64,000 bases of DNA from Pseudanabaena mucicola str. Chao 1806 (GTDB taxonomy: Bacteria; Cyanobacteriota; Cyanobacteriia; Pseudanabaenales; Pseudanabaenaceae). Position 1 is the first letter of the stretch. Each line of letters starts with the position of its first letter. The stretch covers positions 4,078,001 through 4,142,000 of the forward strand of contig NZ_CP097329.1 in assembly GCF_030323025.1 (NCBI RefSeq), read 5' to 3'. The position numbers and the translations under genes were made by a program. Shown piece after piece: positions 28,080 through 52,881 of this stretch. Below the pieces are notes generated by a model that worked only from the letters and a program-made list of their open reading frames with translations, made no database searches and was not told the DNA's origin.

Positions 28080-28126
28080 CCAAGAATTAGTAGTGCGGCG
28101 ATTTGCGCCGCACTACTAATTCTTGG
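28080..28126. repeat. perfect 21-bp hairpin
   Basis: Arms 28080-28100 and 28106-28126 pair perfectly across the loop ATTTG; the inner stem is TGCGGCG. No T tract follows, so termination is not obvious. It belongs to the population of long variable-stem hairpins. Confidence 0.7.
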
Positions 28127-30897: not shown

Positions 30898-30930
30898 ACA
30901 AAAAAGCGGCGGTAAACGCCGCTTTTTTGT
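30898..30930 (-). terminator. ppsA terminator
   Basis: A perfect 14-bp stem (30898-30911 / 30917-30930, loop GTAAA) with A6 and T6 runs abuts the ppsA stop codon, typical of an intrinsic terminator for the leftward gene. Confidence 0.85.
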
Positions 30931-48496: not shown

Positions 48497-51400
48497 ATGA
48501 GCAAAGAATTTGAATCCATCAGTGATCGCTTACCGCCCCAGAATATTGAAGCTGAGGAGGCGGTCTTAGGTGGAATCTTGATCGATCCAGAAGCAGTTTC
48601 GCGAGTGTTAGATACTTTACGACCTGAGATGTTTTATGTGGCTGCCCATCAGGAAATTTTTCGGGCATGCTTGATGCTGCACAATCAGTCGAATCCAACT
48701 GACATGATGAGTTTGACCACATGGCTCAGTGATCGCGATCTACTAGAAAAAATTGGTGGACAATCAAAAATCGCTCAACTTTGCGATCGTACTGTTAGCG
48801 CGGTCAATATTGACTTTTATGCTCAACTGGTTGCAGATAAGTATGCCCGTCGGAAATTGGCAGAGGCGGCAAGAGGTGTGGTTGAGATTAGTTACAACAA
48901 TGAACTGGAACTAGCGCAACTCCTTGATCAATCTGAGCAGAAAATTTTTGCTGTCACCCAATCCCGCGCTCAGCAAGGGCTAGTTCCTGCTGCGGACATT
49001 CTCACCAAGACTTTTTATGAACTAGAAAATCGTTTTAATTCCCTTGGTACAGGCAATTCGGCTGCTACAGGTTTAATTACTGGATTTTACGATTTTGATG
49101 CGATGACCAATGGTCTACAGCGATCAGATCTGATTATCCTCGCAGGTCGTCCCTCAATGGGTAAATGCTTGGCTTTTGATAGTGAACTGGTATTAGCCGA
49201 TGGCAGCATCAGAAGTATTGAAACCATTTATCAGCAATATCAACAAAATCAAACTAAACCCAATCTTTTAACCTTGAGAGAGAGTTGGCGATTTGATTGG
49301 ACGGAACCATCAGCATTTATCGATGATGGCATCAAGCCTGTATTTAGCGTTACTACGGCGTTAGGACGACAAATTGAAACTACTTTAACCCATCCATTTC
49401 TCACGATTACAGGTTGGCAGCAACTAGGGAAATTATGTGTGGGTGATAAAATTGCGCTCCCACGGAAGATTGCAGTTTTTGGAAAAGAAGTATGTCCTGC
49501 CTGTGAAATAAAACTTTTAGCCTATCTATTAGGCGATGGTAGTTTAACTGAAACTAGTCCCCGATTTACGAATACAAACCCCAAAATTCAAGATGATTTT
49601 ATTAGAGCCGTAGAACAATTTTCTCCTAGTTTAAAGGTAACGATTGACAATTACGGCGATCGCATATCAGCACTTCATATTACAGCAATAAAAAGAGGTG
49701 CATGTGATCCCCTAATTACTTGGTTAAGGGACTTAGGAATTTGGGATAAAAATGTCCATCAAAAAACAATTCCAGATTTTGTTTTTCGATTAGAAAAATC
49801 TTTAGTTGCTTTATTCTTAAATCGATTATTAGCTACTGAAGGCTGGATATCTGTTTTAAGTATTGGGCAAGTCCAATTAGGCTATGCCACTGTCAGCAAA
49901 AAGCTAGCTCGTCAAGTCCAGCATTTACTATTAAGATTCGGCATTATTGCAAAACTTAAATACAAGTCTGTTAAATACAACCAAGAAATTCATCACCTCT
50001 GGCAATTAGATATTACTGATGCTTTATCATTGCAAATCCTCATCAACGAAATTGGTGTTTTTGGTAAAGAAGATACTCTTCAAAAAGTAAAACCAGTCTT
50101 AAATACTATGCGATATCAAGCTAATACGGATTTAATACCTATTGAATTTGGGCACGATTTAACAACTGATAAAGATAATCAATCTTGGAAAAATCTAACA
50201 CAAGCTGCAGGTATGAATAGCTCGAATATCCATGCGGGTAGCCGCACTCCTACTAGAGAAAGATTACTCAAACTAGCTACAGCCATTGATTGCCAATCAT
50301 TACAAAATCTTGCCACAAACGATATTTATTGGGACAAAATTACAGCGATTGAATTTGTTGGCAAAAAGCAAGTTTATGACTTGACAATTCCTGAAACTCA
50401 TAATTTTGTTGCCAATGATATTTGTGTCCATAACACAGCTTTTGGTTTGGAACTAGCTCGTAAAATGGCAGAAATCCATCGATTACCTGTGGCGATCTTT
50501 AGTTTAGAAATGTCTAAGGAGCAATTGGTTTACCGACTTCTAGCCAGTCAGTCCAAAGTTCGCTCTAGTGATATGGGTATCGATAGTAATCGTCTCCGCA
50601 CTGGGCAGATTAGCGAAAATGAATGGGGAACCGTAGCAATGGCAATTAGCGGACTTTCCGAACTTCCTCTATTTATAGACGATACTCCTAATCCTCCAAT
50701 TACAGAATTGCGCTCTAAAGCTCGGCGTTTGCAATCTGAGAAGGGAGGTGTACTTGGGCTAATTCTGATTGATTATTTGCAGTTAATGGAAGGATCGGGT
50801 TCTGATAATCGCGTGCAGGAGATTTCCAAAATTACGCGATCGCTAAAAGCACTAGCCCGTGAATTAAATGTCCCTATAATTGCGCTATCCCAGTTAAGCC
50901 GAGGTGTAGAAGCGAGAACTAATAAACGTCCAATGCTTTCAGACTTGAGAGAATCTGGATGTCTAAGTGGTGATTCTTTAATCACAATGGCGGATACAGG
51001 ATCGGAAATCCCCATTCGTGATCTAGTTGGCAAATCTAATTTTGCAATCTGGGCAGTCAATGCCCAAACCTTCAAAATGGAACGAGCAATCGTGAGTAAT
51101 GCTTTTTGTAATGGGTCTAAACCTGTATATCAATTAAAAACGCAGCTAGGGCGATCGCTCAAAGCAACAGCCAATCATAAATTCTTGACCATTCAGGGCT
51201 GGGAAAGGCTTGATGAGATCCAAATAGGTGATCGCATTGCGATACCGCTTCAAATTCATTGCCAAGAATTACAAACAGTTTGTGATGATATTGCAAATTT
51301 TGTAACCAAAGATATCTATTGGGATAAAGTAGAAGCCATCAATTTACTAGCAGAGGAAATGGTATATGACTTAACTGTGCCAAGCTTATCTAACTTTGTG

Positions 51401-51613
51401 GCAAATGGATTTTATGTCCATAACAGCATTGAACAAGACGCAGACTTGGTAATTAACTTATATCGTGATGAGTATTACAATCCCGATACACCTGATCGCG
51501 GAGTTGCCGAGATCATTATTTCAAAACATCGTAATGGTCCAGTTGGTACTGTTAAATTGCTCTTTGAACCACGCTTAACTAAATTTGAGAATATGGCTTC
51601 TAGTCGAAGCTAA
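48497..51613 (+). CDS. dnaB: replicative DNA helicase DnaB with two inteins
   Basis: A 1038-residue precursor. Removal of two inteins (residues 224-646 and 822-976) leaves a 460-residue DnaB, the family's normal size: N-terminal DnaG-interacting domain (PPQNIEAEEAVLGGIL), Walker A GRPSMGK-T split by intein 1, Walker B LGLILIDYLQLME, and RESG-SIEQDADL split by intein 2. The hexameric helicase unwinds DNA at the fork. Both splice sites have intact Cys1 and C-terminal His-Asn, with Thr and Ser as +1 residues, so both inteins should splice. Because intein 1 interrupts the P-loop, the helicase is inactive until splicing. Confidence 0.95.
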   Translation: MSKEFESISDRLPPQNIEAEEAVLGGILIDPEAVSRVLDTLRPEMFYVAAHQEIFRACLMLHNQSNPTDMMSLTTWLSDRDLLEKIGGQSKIAQLCDRTVSAVNIDFYAQLVADKYARRKLAEAARGVVEISYNNELELAQLLDQSEQKIFAVTQSRAQQGLVPAADILTKTFYELENRFNSLGTGNSAATGLITGFYDFDAMTNGLQRSDLIILAGRPSMGKCLAFDSELVLADGSIRSIETIYQQYQQNQTKPNLLTLRESWRFDWTEPSAFIDDGIKPVFSVTTALGRQIETTLTHPFLTITGWQQLGKLCVGDKIALPRKIAVFGKEVCPACEIKLLAYLLGDGSLTETSPRFTNTNPKIQDDFIRAVEQFSPSLKVTIDNYGDRISALHITAIKRGACDPLITWLRDLGIWDKNVHQKTIPDFVFRLEKSLVALFLNRLLATEGWISVLSIGQVQLGYATVSKKLARQVQHLLLRFGIIAKLKYKSVKYNQEIHHLWQLDITDALSLQILINEIGVFGKEDTLQKVKPVLNTMRYQANTDLIPIEFGHDLTTDKDNQSWKNLTQAAGMNSSNIHAGSRTPTRERLLKLATAIDCQSLQNLATNDIYWDKITAIEFVGKKQVYDLTIPETHNFVANDICVHNTAFGLELARKMAEIHRLPVAIFSLEMSKEQLVYRLLASQSKVRSSDMGIDSNRLRTGQISENEWGTVAMAISGLSELPLFIDDTPNPPITELRSKARRLQSEKGGVLGLILIDYLQLMEGSGSDNRVQEISKITRSLKALARELNVPIIALSQLSRGVEARTNKRPMLSDLRESGCLSGDSLITMADTGSEIPIRDLVGKSNFAIWAVNAQTFKMERAIVSNAFCNGSKPVYQLKTQLGRSLKATANHKFLTIQGWERLDEIQIGDRIAIPLQIHCQELQTVCDDIANFVTKDIYWDKVEAINLLAEEMVYDLTVPSLSNFVANGFYVHNSIEQDADLVINLYRDEYYNPDTPDRGVAEIIISKHRNGPVGTVKLLFEPRLTKFENMASSRS
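49166..50434 (+). mobile_element. DnaB intein 1 (P-loop site) with LAGLIDADG endonuclease
   Basis: A 423-residue in-frame intein from Cys224 (CLAFDSELVLADGSI) to His-Asn646 (FVANDICVHN). The N-terminal splicing block includes TTLTHPFLTI. The middle holds a LAGLIDADG-type homing endonuclease: LLAYLLGDGSL and, about 100 residues later, FLNRLLATEGWIS. Insertion is between GRPSMGK and TAFGLEL. The acidic residues of both endonuclease motifs (GD and TE) are retained, so it may still home. Confidence 0.92.
50960..51424 (+). mobile_element. DnaB intein 2 (RESG site), mini-intein
   Basis: A 155-residue intein from Cys822 (CLSGDSLITMADTG) to His-Asn976 (FVANGFYVHN), inserted between RESG and SIEQDADL, the same site as the well-known Synechocystis DnaB intein. 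It contains the splicing blocks (ATANHKFLTIQGW, MVYDLTVPSLSNFVANG) but no endonuclease domain. It is therefore a natural mini-intein, unable to home by itself. Confidence 0.92.
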
Positions 51614-51692
51614 AGATTAGAACGAACAATCTTCTTTAAAAACTGAAGTATAATTACTGGCTATTTGTATCACTTTGCACTTACTTAAAATT

Positions 51693-51743
51693 CAGAAATA
51701 TTTTTGCAAGTGTTGATTAGCAACACTTGCAAAAATATTTCTG
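51693..51743. repeat. 23-bp perfect hairpin, outer arms shared with 52669-52719
   Basis: Arms 51693-51715 and 51721-51743 pair exactly over the loop ATTAG. The outer 14 bases CAGAAATATTTTTG are identical to those of the hairpin at 52669-52719, but the inner stem (CAAGTGTTG) differs. It lies just before the ABM-domain gene and an upstream TTG could read through it. Confidence 0.8.
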
Positions 51744-51767
51744 TACTACTCAAAGCCTCAATAGGCT
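51730..51767 (+). repeat. 38-bp inverted repeat, left copy
   Basis: This 38-base segment (CAAAAATATTTCTG followed by TACTACTCAAAGCCTCAATA and GGCT) occurs in exact inverted form at 52645-52682. It includes the right outer arm of the hairpin plus 24 bases of flank. The two copies bracket the ABM gene and the transposase remnant. Confidence 0.85.
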
Positions 51768-51781
51768 TTATTGGTGAATCT

Positions 51782-52369
51782 ATGCAGACATTTGGACAAC
51801 AATCAGACCCGATTACATTAGTTATCTCCGAAGTTGTGGAACCAAATCGCATAGACGAATATGAAGCTTGGACAAAAGGTCTCAATCATGCCGCGCGACA
51901 ATTTGCAGGCTTTATCGGAGTTGACGTTATCCGACCACGCGATCATCAATATCCCGAATATGTATTAATCGTTAAATTTGATAACTATGAGCATTGCAAA
52001 AATTGGCTAACCTCATCGGTTTATCACAATTGGATGCTCAAATCTAAAGAATTCATCGCTAAGCGATCACAACAACATCTTCCAAATGGACTAGAGTTAT
52101 GGTTTACCTTGCCTAAAAGTTCATCTCTAACCATTCCGCCCCAACCTGCATATTACAAACAAGTGATCGTTGGTGTGATTACTGTATATCCTCTAATTCT
52201 GTTAGCAAAATTAGTTCTCAATCCATTTCTAAATGGGCTTCCTGATCTATTAAGCTTATTTATATCAGTTATCTTTGTTTCTGCCTTGCTAAATTATCCC
52301 GTTATGCCATACCTCACCCGAATACTTAGTTTCTGGCTTTATCCGTCTGCATCTAAACAACATAAGTAA
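51782..52369 (+). CDS. ABM-domain protein with C-terminal membrane segments
   Basis: A 195-residue protein from the ATG at 51782. Residues about 10-105 form an antibiotic-biosynthesis-monooxygenase-like domain (ITLVISEVVEPNRIDEYEAW, FAGFIGVDVIRP, YVLIVKFDNYEHCKNWLTS). Residues about 130-190 contain two hydrophobic segments (VGVITVYPLILLAKLVL, LLSLFISVIFVSALLNYPVM) ending in a cytoplasmic tail. Proteins with this ABM plus two-TM layout occur in many bacteria; no substrate is known. Upstream in-frame codons fall inside the 51693 hairpin and the 38-bp repeat, so the later ATG is chosen. Confidence 0.72.
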   Translation: MQTFGQQSDPITLVISEVVEPNRIDEYEAWTKGLNHAARQFAGFIGVDVIRPRDHQYPEYVLIVKFDNYEHCKNWLTSSVYHNWMLKSKEFIAKRSQQHLPNGLELWFTLPKSSSLTIPPQPAYYKQVIVGVITVYPLILLAKLVLNPFLNGLPDLLSLFISVIFVSALLNYPVMPYLTRILSFWLYPSASKQHK

Positions 52370-52393
52370 CTAATAGCTATTGGTACTGATCAG

Positions 52394-52627
52394 TTAACCC
52401 GTGAGAGAAGTAAAACCGCGTAATGACAGCAACTCTAACATCGAAATCGGTCGATGATACAGCCCAATCGCCATAGCAGGAGTCTTGTTCTTGCCTAAGC
52501 TCACATGAGGTCTTATCCAGTTCTGATTTCCATCCCCTCTGTCCTCATTTTCAGGGCATAGGACACGATACTTGCTGGGGCTCTTAGCCTTGACATGGCT
52601 GTGCCTGTGCGTTCGTTGAATCTTTTG
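52394..52627 (-). pseudogene. IS transposase C-terminal remnant
   Basis: On the - strand an open stretch with no usable start ends NQNWIRPHVSLGKNKTPAMA then IGLYHRPISMLELL. The RPHxSLG..KTPAMAxGL block is the standard C-terminus of a DDE transposase. The catalytic part is missing, with stop codons at once upstream. No other gene is present in the 52370-53101 gap. Confidence 0.7.
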
Positions 52628-52644
52628 TCACATCCTTTACATAC

Positions 52645-52682
52645 AGCCTATTGAGGCTTTGAGTAGTACAGAAATATTTTTG
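52645..52682 (-). repeat. 38-bp inverted repeat, right copy
   Basis: Exact inverted counterpart of 51730-51767; identity stops at both outer edges. It forms the left flank and outer arm of the hairpin at 52669-52719. Confidence 0.85.
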
Positions 52683-52719
52683 AAAGTGGCGCTTTGCGCC
52701 ACTTTCAAAAATATTTCTG
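52669..52719. repeat. 24-bp perfect hairpin, outer arms shared with 51693-51743
   Basis: Arms 52669-52692 and 52696-52719 pair exactly with loop TTT and inner stem AAAGTGGCGC. Outer arms CAGAAATATTTTTG match the 51693 hairpin. Confidence 0.8.
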
Positions 52720-52881
52720 GGTTTTGAGTAAGCGCAAAGCGCTGTAAGTAATTATGGATTTCTTTGCCGTCTTGGTGGTCATCAAAGAAATCAAGTGCTT
52801 GCCTATAGCTAATAGATTTTAGTTCTGAGGCGATCGCATTTGTTAAAATAAAAATTAGATCCTATGCCCCAAAAATTAGAG

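Follow-up and report, generated by a model that had tools for sequence, protein, structure and literature searches.

Minute inversions associated with hairpins were reportedly described by Kelchner and Wendel in 1996 from the intergenic chloroplast DNA of closely related lineages, and the small dispersed repeats of Nostoc are said to have been described by Elhai in 2008. Dispersed elements of the REP/REPIN type have as hallmarks a GTAG/CGTC-type tag at the foot of the stem and a linked RAYT. In Saccharomyces, ten inversions in coding sequence have been ascribed to template switching at short inverted repeats, a process described as reversible (Abraham and Hazkani-Covo 2021, PMC8604942, in its available text). 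Template switching has also been described as maintaining RNA hairpins, and as the source of loop inversions in bacterial rRNA genes (Monttinen and Loytynoja 2022, PMC8794818, available portion). In E. coli, quasipalindrome mutation makes an imperfect inverted repeat perfect by hairpin-templated copying (PMC7202029, in excerpt).

The two hairpins considered here lie in a window of 64,000 nucleotides (the whole stretch of DNA that was analysed) from the chromosome of Pseudanabaena mucicola str. Chao 1806; the genome to which the window belongs (one contig, 4.53 Mb) is referred to as G000, and a second genome of the same species as G006. Like the chloroplast inversions, the changes observed are small intergenic loop inversions, but those occurred in plastids, whereas these occur in a cyanobacterial chromosome and involve a repeat family. 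As in the available text on Saccharomyces, arms are homogenised and spacers completely inverted between strains; in contrast to its ten coding inversions, there are 29 inversions among 105 mostly intergenic hairpins of one bacterial genome pair. As in the accessible part of PMC8794818, one copying event would explain both compensatory changes and loop inversions; however, that work concerned genes for rRNA and microRNA, the structure of which is under selection and in which loop inversions are rare, whereas here the hairpins are intergenic repeats and loop inversion is frequent. The likeness to E. coli is that an imperfect inverted repeat becomes perfect, but the excerpt of PMC7202029 deals with a laboratory reporter assay and gives no genome-wide natural rate. 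With REPIN/REP elements (PMC3116915, in part) and the Nostoc repeats, the family shares dispersed intergenic hairpins that show compensatory changes between copies; unlike them, it is 105 bp in length and has TACAGC...GCTGTA ends around one long stem. Among the titles and opening lines of abstracts listed, few of them from subscription papers, none described hairpin tips that invert frequently in cyanobacteria, or a genome-wide rate of such inversion for a bacterium. As far as could be seen, a known process is met here in a natural instance that is new and dense.

Two hairpins within a 105-bp element

Both hairpins are real and lie where the original prediction had placed them: a palindrome search of the window returned one stem of 23 bp with a loop of 5 and one of 24 bp with a loop of 3 (Table 1). 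The window (positions 1-64000) contains 19 palindromes with arms of at least 12 bp, i.e., 17 beside the two hairpins, these having other outer arms; three first-order Markov controls, each as long as the window, contained 1 in total. Many of the 19 have similar GC-rich tips (such as GCGC-GAA-GCGC) and differing outer arms. Matches to CAGAAATATTTTTG with at most 2 mismatches number 10 in the window, compared with 1.86 expected, and none of 100 shuffles reached 10; eight of the ten come from the four hairpin arms, each of which is counted once per strand. DNA folding gave z values of -11.5 and -12.4 for the two hairpins. No Rfam family matched in the window at gathering thresholds, and a known RNA family as an identity for the hairpins was rejected on that basis.

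Table 1. Positions, within the window, of the two element copies, their hairpins and other features
Feature	Position	Strand	Remarks
Copy 1 of 105-bp MITE-like element	51666..51770	-	right end 51666, left end 51770; matched ends, 105-bp spacing
Hairpin of copy 1	51693..51743	.	23 perfect pairs, loop ATTAG; unchanged in same-species G006
Copy 2 of 105-bp MITE-like element	52642..52746	+	both ends with 0 mismatches to the searched consensus
Hairpin of copy 2	52669..52719	.	24 perfect pairs, loop TTT; exact tip inversion (AAA) in G006
Replicative helicase DnaB, 1038 aa	48497-51613	+	Pfam: two Intein_splicing stretches, one LAGLIDADG domain
IS1-like element remnant	52380-52643		interior missing; two parts about 658 bp apart in fuller copy L262
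Dispersed repeat, about 113 bp	52882-52994		copies 94-96% identical elsewhere in G000 and G006
Unrelated hairpin, like behaviour	28080..28126	.	tip inverted in G006, and one T inserted in one arm
Unrelated hairpin	30898..30930	.	arms just 14 bp; in G006 the tip is exactly inverted

The likeness of the two hairpins extends beyond their stems, as both sit inside a 105-bp element, in opposite orientations. The element consists of TACAGCCTATTGAGGCTTTGAGTAGTAC, a stem of at most 24 pairs starting with CAGAAATATTTTTG (the C is shared), and GGTTTTRAGTAAGCGCAAAGCGCTGTA after the last G of the stem. Its ends (TACAGC...GCTGTA, TACAGCGCTTTGCGCTTAC) have TACAGC in common and are otherwise only partly alike; the left end of copy 1 (G000:4129743-4129770) has 1 mismatch to the searched consensus. 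In the consensus, each outer end carries TA, beyond which the bases vary. The element is thus short, dispersed and non-coding with inverted ends, which are traits of a MITE. Hairpin arms of this type occur at 51 places in G000, and searches for the ends with up to 3 mismatches gave 70 left-end and 73 right-end matches there. Of 26 Pseudanabaena genomes, 20 contain such arms (51 in G000, 54 in G006, 0-16 in the others), and a pattern scan of reference genomes matched 18 stretches, 14 of which are Pseudanabaena by title.

A scan limited to ends and long ORFs, in 20 stretches near ends that were unpaired or diverged, found no parent insertion sequence or transposase with the same ends. One of the loci, L238, is a 1.18-kb stretch in which two right-type ends face each other around an ORF; by eye this is not a transposase, and we take it to resemble an SPFH/prohibitin-type protein. 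As far as seen, the family could not be matched to a named one. At L228, L233 and L237, copies of the element are broken inside the hairpin by other hairpin-bearing insertions, i.e., the repeats are nested, and at L238 a copy is interrupted beside its hairpin in the same manner. At 48497-51613, DnaB looks, from its domain matches, to be interrupted by two inteins. The zinc-finger protein of L262, the fuller copy of the IS1-like remnant, matches the IS1/IS1595 N-terminal domain above the cut-off and the IS1 transposase model below it.

The original prediction took the difference between the two window hairpins as direct evidence that stem cores are replaced in a concerted way that keeps them paired. 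As evidence of replacement at one site this cannot be sustained, as the two are paralogous insertions. It can then be asked whether any process acting within a site is needed, since the hairpins might differ only by descent from different source copies. They are separate insertions of one element; at the orthologous place of copy 1, the element is absent from three other genomes (G022, G014 and G025), the spacers of which have diverged too far to show a clean empty site; and stem pair 14 is G-C in 32 and A-T in 13 of 46 copies. Different source copies are likely to be part of the history of these two hairpins. As the whole account, descent is improbable and already insufficient in general, as it cannot explain the inversions and both-sided changes found at orthologous sites (see below).

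Variation among copies of the element

Forty-six copies of exact length were gathered by their ends, 39 of them from loci fetched by arms and 7 from loci fetched by ends. As 32 of the 46 match a two-arm pattern, which fixes stem pairs 2-11, counts were made on pairs 12-24, with shuffle controls that ignore the relatedness of paralogous copies. Over these pairs, both-sided changes were found in 49 of 598 pair-by-copy cells (mean 14.9 and maximum 25 in 500 shuffles), and mismatches in 83 of 598 (shuffle mean 148, minimum 132). Stems are perfect in 14 of the 46 copies, and at least one unpaired pair in the core (pairs 15-24) is present in 28. Unpaired core substitutions in many copies, which the original prediction itself had named as speaking against replacement that preserves pairing, are therefore found in part.

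Mismatches crowd at the tip, with 65 in 230 cells (pairs 20-24) compared with 18 in 368 in mid-stem (pairs 12-19), and the tip pairs show more changes of every kind. The same can be seen in the 14 copies off the two-arm pattern, with mismatches in 4/112 cells for pairs 4-11, 9/112 for pairs 12-19 and 31/70 for pairs 20-24. The foot of the stem is frayed too: mismatches affect the outermost pair of 11 of the 46 copies and, for pairs 2-3, 7 of the 92 cells, and in the 14 copies off the pattern, these values are 5/14 for pair 1 and 7/28 for pairs 2-3. Loops, oriented by the ends of the element, are TTC in 11, GAA in 10, TTT in 12 and AAA in 4 of the 46 copies in G000, so that both orientations are present. 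At L042, around position 600 (G000 1103763), the left arm has been replaced by the element's own right flank (TTTTGAGTAAGCGTAAAGCG), with which it shares TTTTGA; this resembles a misdirected template switch.

Orthologous hairpins between genomes

The clearest view of change at a single site comes from G000 and G006, the alignment of which covers 322,997 bases with 1,783 mismatches (0.55%). Strong hairpins number 138 over 358 kb of G000; of these, 130 are outside ORFs of at least 150 residues. Removal of 6 that were unmapped, 3 classed as "other" and 7 that were symmetric left 122; removal of a further 8 with flanks below 96% identity and 9 whose tips would change by just one base on inversion (5 of the 9 had counted as inverted) left 105 informative hairpins. 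Tips are inverted in 29 of the 105: 17 exactly, and 12 with one further change, the calling of which involves judgement. This corresponds to about 0.40 events per hairpin, i.e., 73 times the per-site substitution rate, or 36 times if the 17 exact cases alone are taken. Inverted tips occur across many unrelated arm sequences and depend on arm length: by alignment, for loops of 3-8 with unchanged arms, exact loop inversion was found in 0 of 6437 cases at arms of 4-7 bp, in 4 of 56 at arms of 8-11 bp (2 of them at 8 bp) and in 13 of 88 at arms of at least 12 bp (17 of 144 at 8 bp or more).

The main weakness of this comparison is that G006 is a metagenome assembly in 160 contigs, and perfect palindromes are hard to assemble from short reads; some of the inversions could therefore be assembly errors. 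That they are errors as a class is very doubtful, for several reasons. Inversions are seen at arms of 8-16 bp, and usual assembly words are longer than this; both loop orientations occur among the copies within the single contig of G000; inverted tips likewise distinguish two other genomes, G022 (1 contig) and G014 (8 contigs), at several sites; and both-sided changes of arms are not an expected assembly error.

The tips might also be flipped physically, without copying by a polymerase, through cruciform extrusion and resolution or other recombination. Such a flip would give exact inversions, as in 17 of the 105, including those in which the tip carries its mismatches along (S4 12566, S6 765). 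It cannot create paired changes of base or length (S1 69715, S6 7411, S2 27125) or remove mismatches, and as the general process it is rather unlikely.

Changes in the stems can be followed in 121 hairpins with good flanks. Here 2408 pairs are unchanged and 14 mismatched pairs are still mismatched; 18 changes are one-sided, 13 from paired to mismatched and 5 from mismatched to paired. Both-sided changes were found in 2 of 2423 initially paired stem pairs, together with one paired insertion, compared with an expectation of 0.02-0.04 pairs, which assumes that half of double changes are complementary. The two base-pair changes lie near genome positions 4147716 and 3758911 and the paired insertion near 1252125, with flanks 98-100% identical; the insertion consists of an A and a T in opposite arms, accompanies an inverted tip and has flanks 99-100% identical. 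A single one-sided change may be a new mutation or a repair, which would be indistinguishable in these data.

The idea that arms change in a way that preserves pairing thus stands insofar as both-sided changes and tip inversions at orthologous sites go beyond independent mutation. The stronger form, in which changes always come in complementary pairs, does not agree with 18 one-sided changes against 2 both-sided pairs between strains. Nor do the strains differ by replacement of whole cores: clean differences are base pairs, single bases and inversions of the whole tip, and the two whole-core differences (S1 66501, 71453) occur where the surrounding sequence has itself diverged, the flanks being 78-93% identical. 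Swapping of core cassettes between copies was rejected as a general account by these clean orthologous differences. Separately, G000 at about 381950-388100 has 96.1% identity to G006 amid 99.1-99.7%, which suggests a patch of imported DNA.

Perfect pairing in intergenic hairpins also invites an explanation by function, namely that the RNA forms act as terminators or RNA stabilisers and that selection keeps them paired via ordinary compensatory mutations. The location of 130 of the 138 hairpins outside ORFs of at least 150 residues agrees with this, as does a loose terminator consensus, which found 6 terminator-like sites compared with 1.1 expected, both window hairpins being among them; compensatory changes in REPIN hairpins have been described along with selection on the element (PMC3116915, available part). 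However, the T tails of the terminator-like sites were judged weak, selection on RNA would not invert tips, and the GC-rich pairs of the tip are mismatched more often than those of mid-stem. Moreover, stem sites differ by about 0.45% (22 changed of about 4880), near the 0.55% background, with the limitation that hairpins broken in the G000 lineage would be missed. Maintenance by selection on RNA is, on balance, unlikely.

Comparisons over greater distances show more paired change. The alignment of G022 with G014 covers 88,432 bases, of which 5.9% differ. In the 18 hairpins that could be compared (105 of the 127 in G022 being unmappable), both-sided change affected 11 pairs, while 13 had gone from paired to mismatched and 3 in reverse, with 15 further pairs gapped; inverted tips are seen at several sites, e.g. 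G022b 46011 and 59430. Between G025 and G022, four paired differences occur within one stem, with flanks 94-98% identical. Thus, one-sided changes dominate at short times and paired changes gain ground over longer ones, as expected if one-sided mutations are later copied to the other arm.

In 50 kb of E. coli K-12 there is one hairpin of comparable strength, unchanged in three strains; at a looser threshold, none of 31 informative E. coli comparisons (three strains) and 4 of 50 Pseudanabaena hairpins of score 10-13 are inverted, numbers too few for a difference to be claimed. ExoI suppresses template switching. Its C-terminal domain was found in 0 of 25 Pseudanabaena genomes but in just 1 of 14 control genomes as well, so its absence is not special and loss of a hairpin nuclease was rejected as the cause; models of SbcD and XseA match in 25 of the 25 Pseudanabaena genomes searched. 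In the available part of PMC7202029 no mention of a role of ExoI in template switching was found.

Probable template switching between hairpin arms

Template switching between arms, comprising quasipalindrome correction and spacer inversion, is probably the best explanation of these observations, and would act on many unrelated intergenic hairpins. What such switching should leave behind was found: inverted spacers at orthologous sites, joint change of arms beyond chance, and dependence on the length of the arms rather than on their sequence. In this scheme, the hairpins belong to dispersed repeats, here the 105-bp MITE-like element, and DNA polymerase would now and then switch template between the two arms of a hairpin during replication, which would keep the arms largely matched and make the tips flip. 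Where the growing strand folds onto itself and its first arm serves as template, an outer mismatch would be overwritten and the stem would be perfect again; where synthesis moves to the other parental strand and then returns, the tip would be inverted, and mismatches between the two switch points may be removed in the same event. We infer the polymerase step, the strand used and the enzymes.

Judged from the pattern, template switching would jointly cover inversion, both-sided change, dependence on arm length, the lack of any dependence on sequence and the crowding of mismatches at the tip. That mismatches are fewer in mid-stem than at the tip would follow if copying could proceed outward only once the inner stem had formed. 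The frayed foot of the stem is not predicted by outward correction, unless this stops short of the foot, and template switching alone does not explain it. Each of the alternatives considered above may account for part of the data.

Long perfect stems that covary are usually taken as RNA structure under selection. Here, covariation and perfect pairing are found together with near-background divergence and inverted tips, and so could arise from mutation alone; tests of covariation on intergenic hairpins should allow for such a mutational origin. It can be proposed, tentatively and with somewhat less than even confidence, that the long perfect intergenic hairpins of Pseudanabaena are kept perfect mainly by mutation and not by selection, through copying of one arm from the other, and that their tips switch rapidly between two states, which may coexist in one population, with tip orientation among the quickest-changing sites of the genome.

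Within bacterial species, variants are described as being in excess in the spacers of inverted repeats and short in the arms, a pattern that was linked to regulatory roles (PMC13155455, in its available text, which does not contain the words "template switch"). Inversion of tips would yield such a pattern of spacer excess and arm shortage. If the proposal made for Pseudanabaena is true, it could also account for the surplus of single-base variants that has recently been reported from inverted-repeat spacers across bacterial species.
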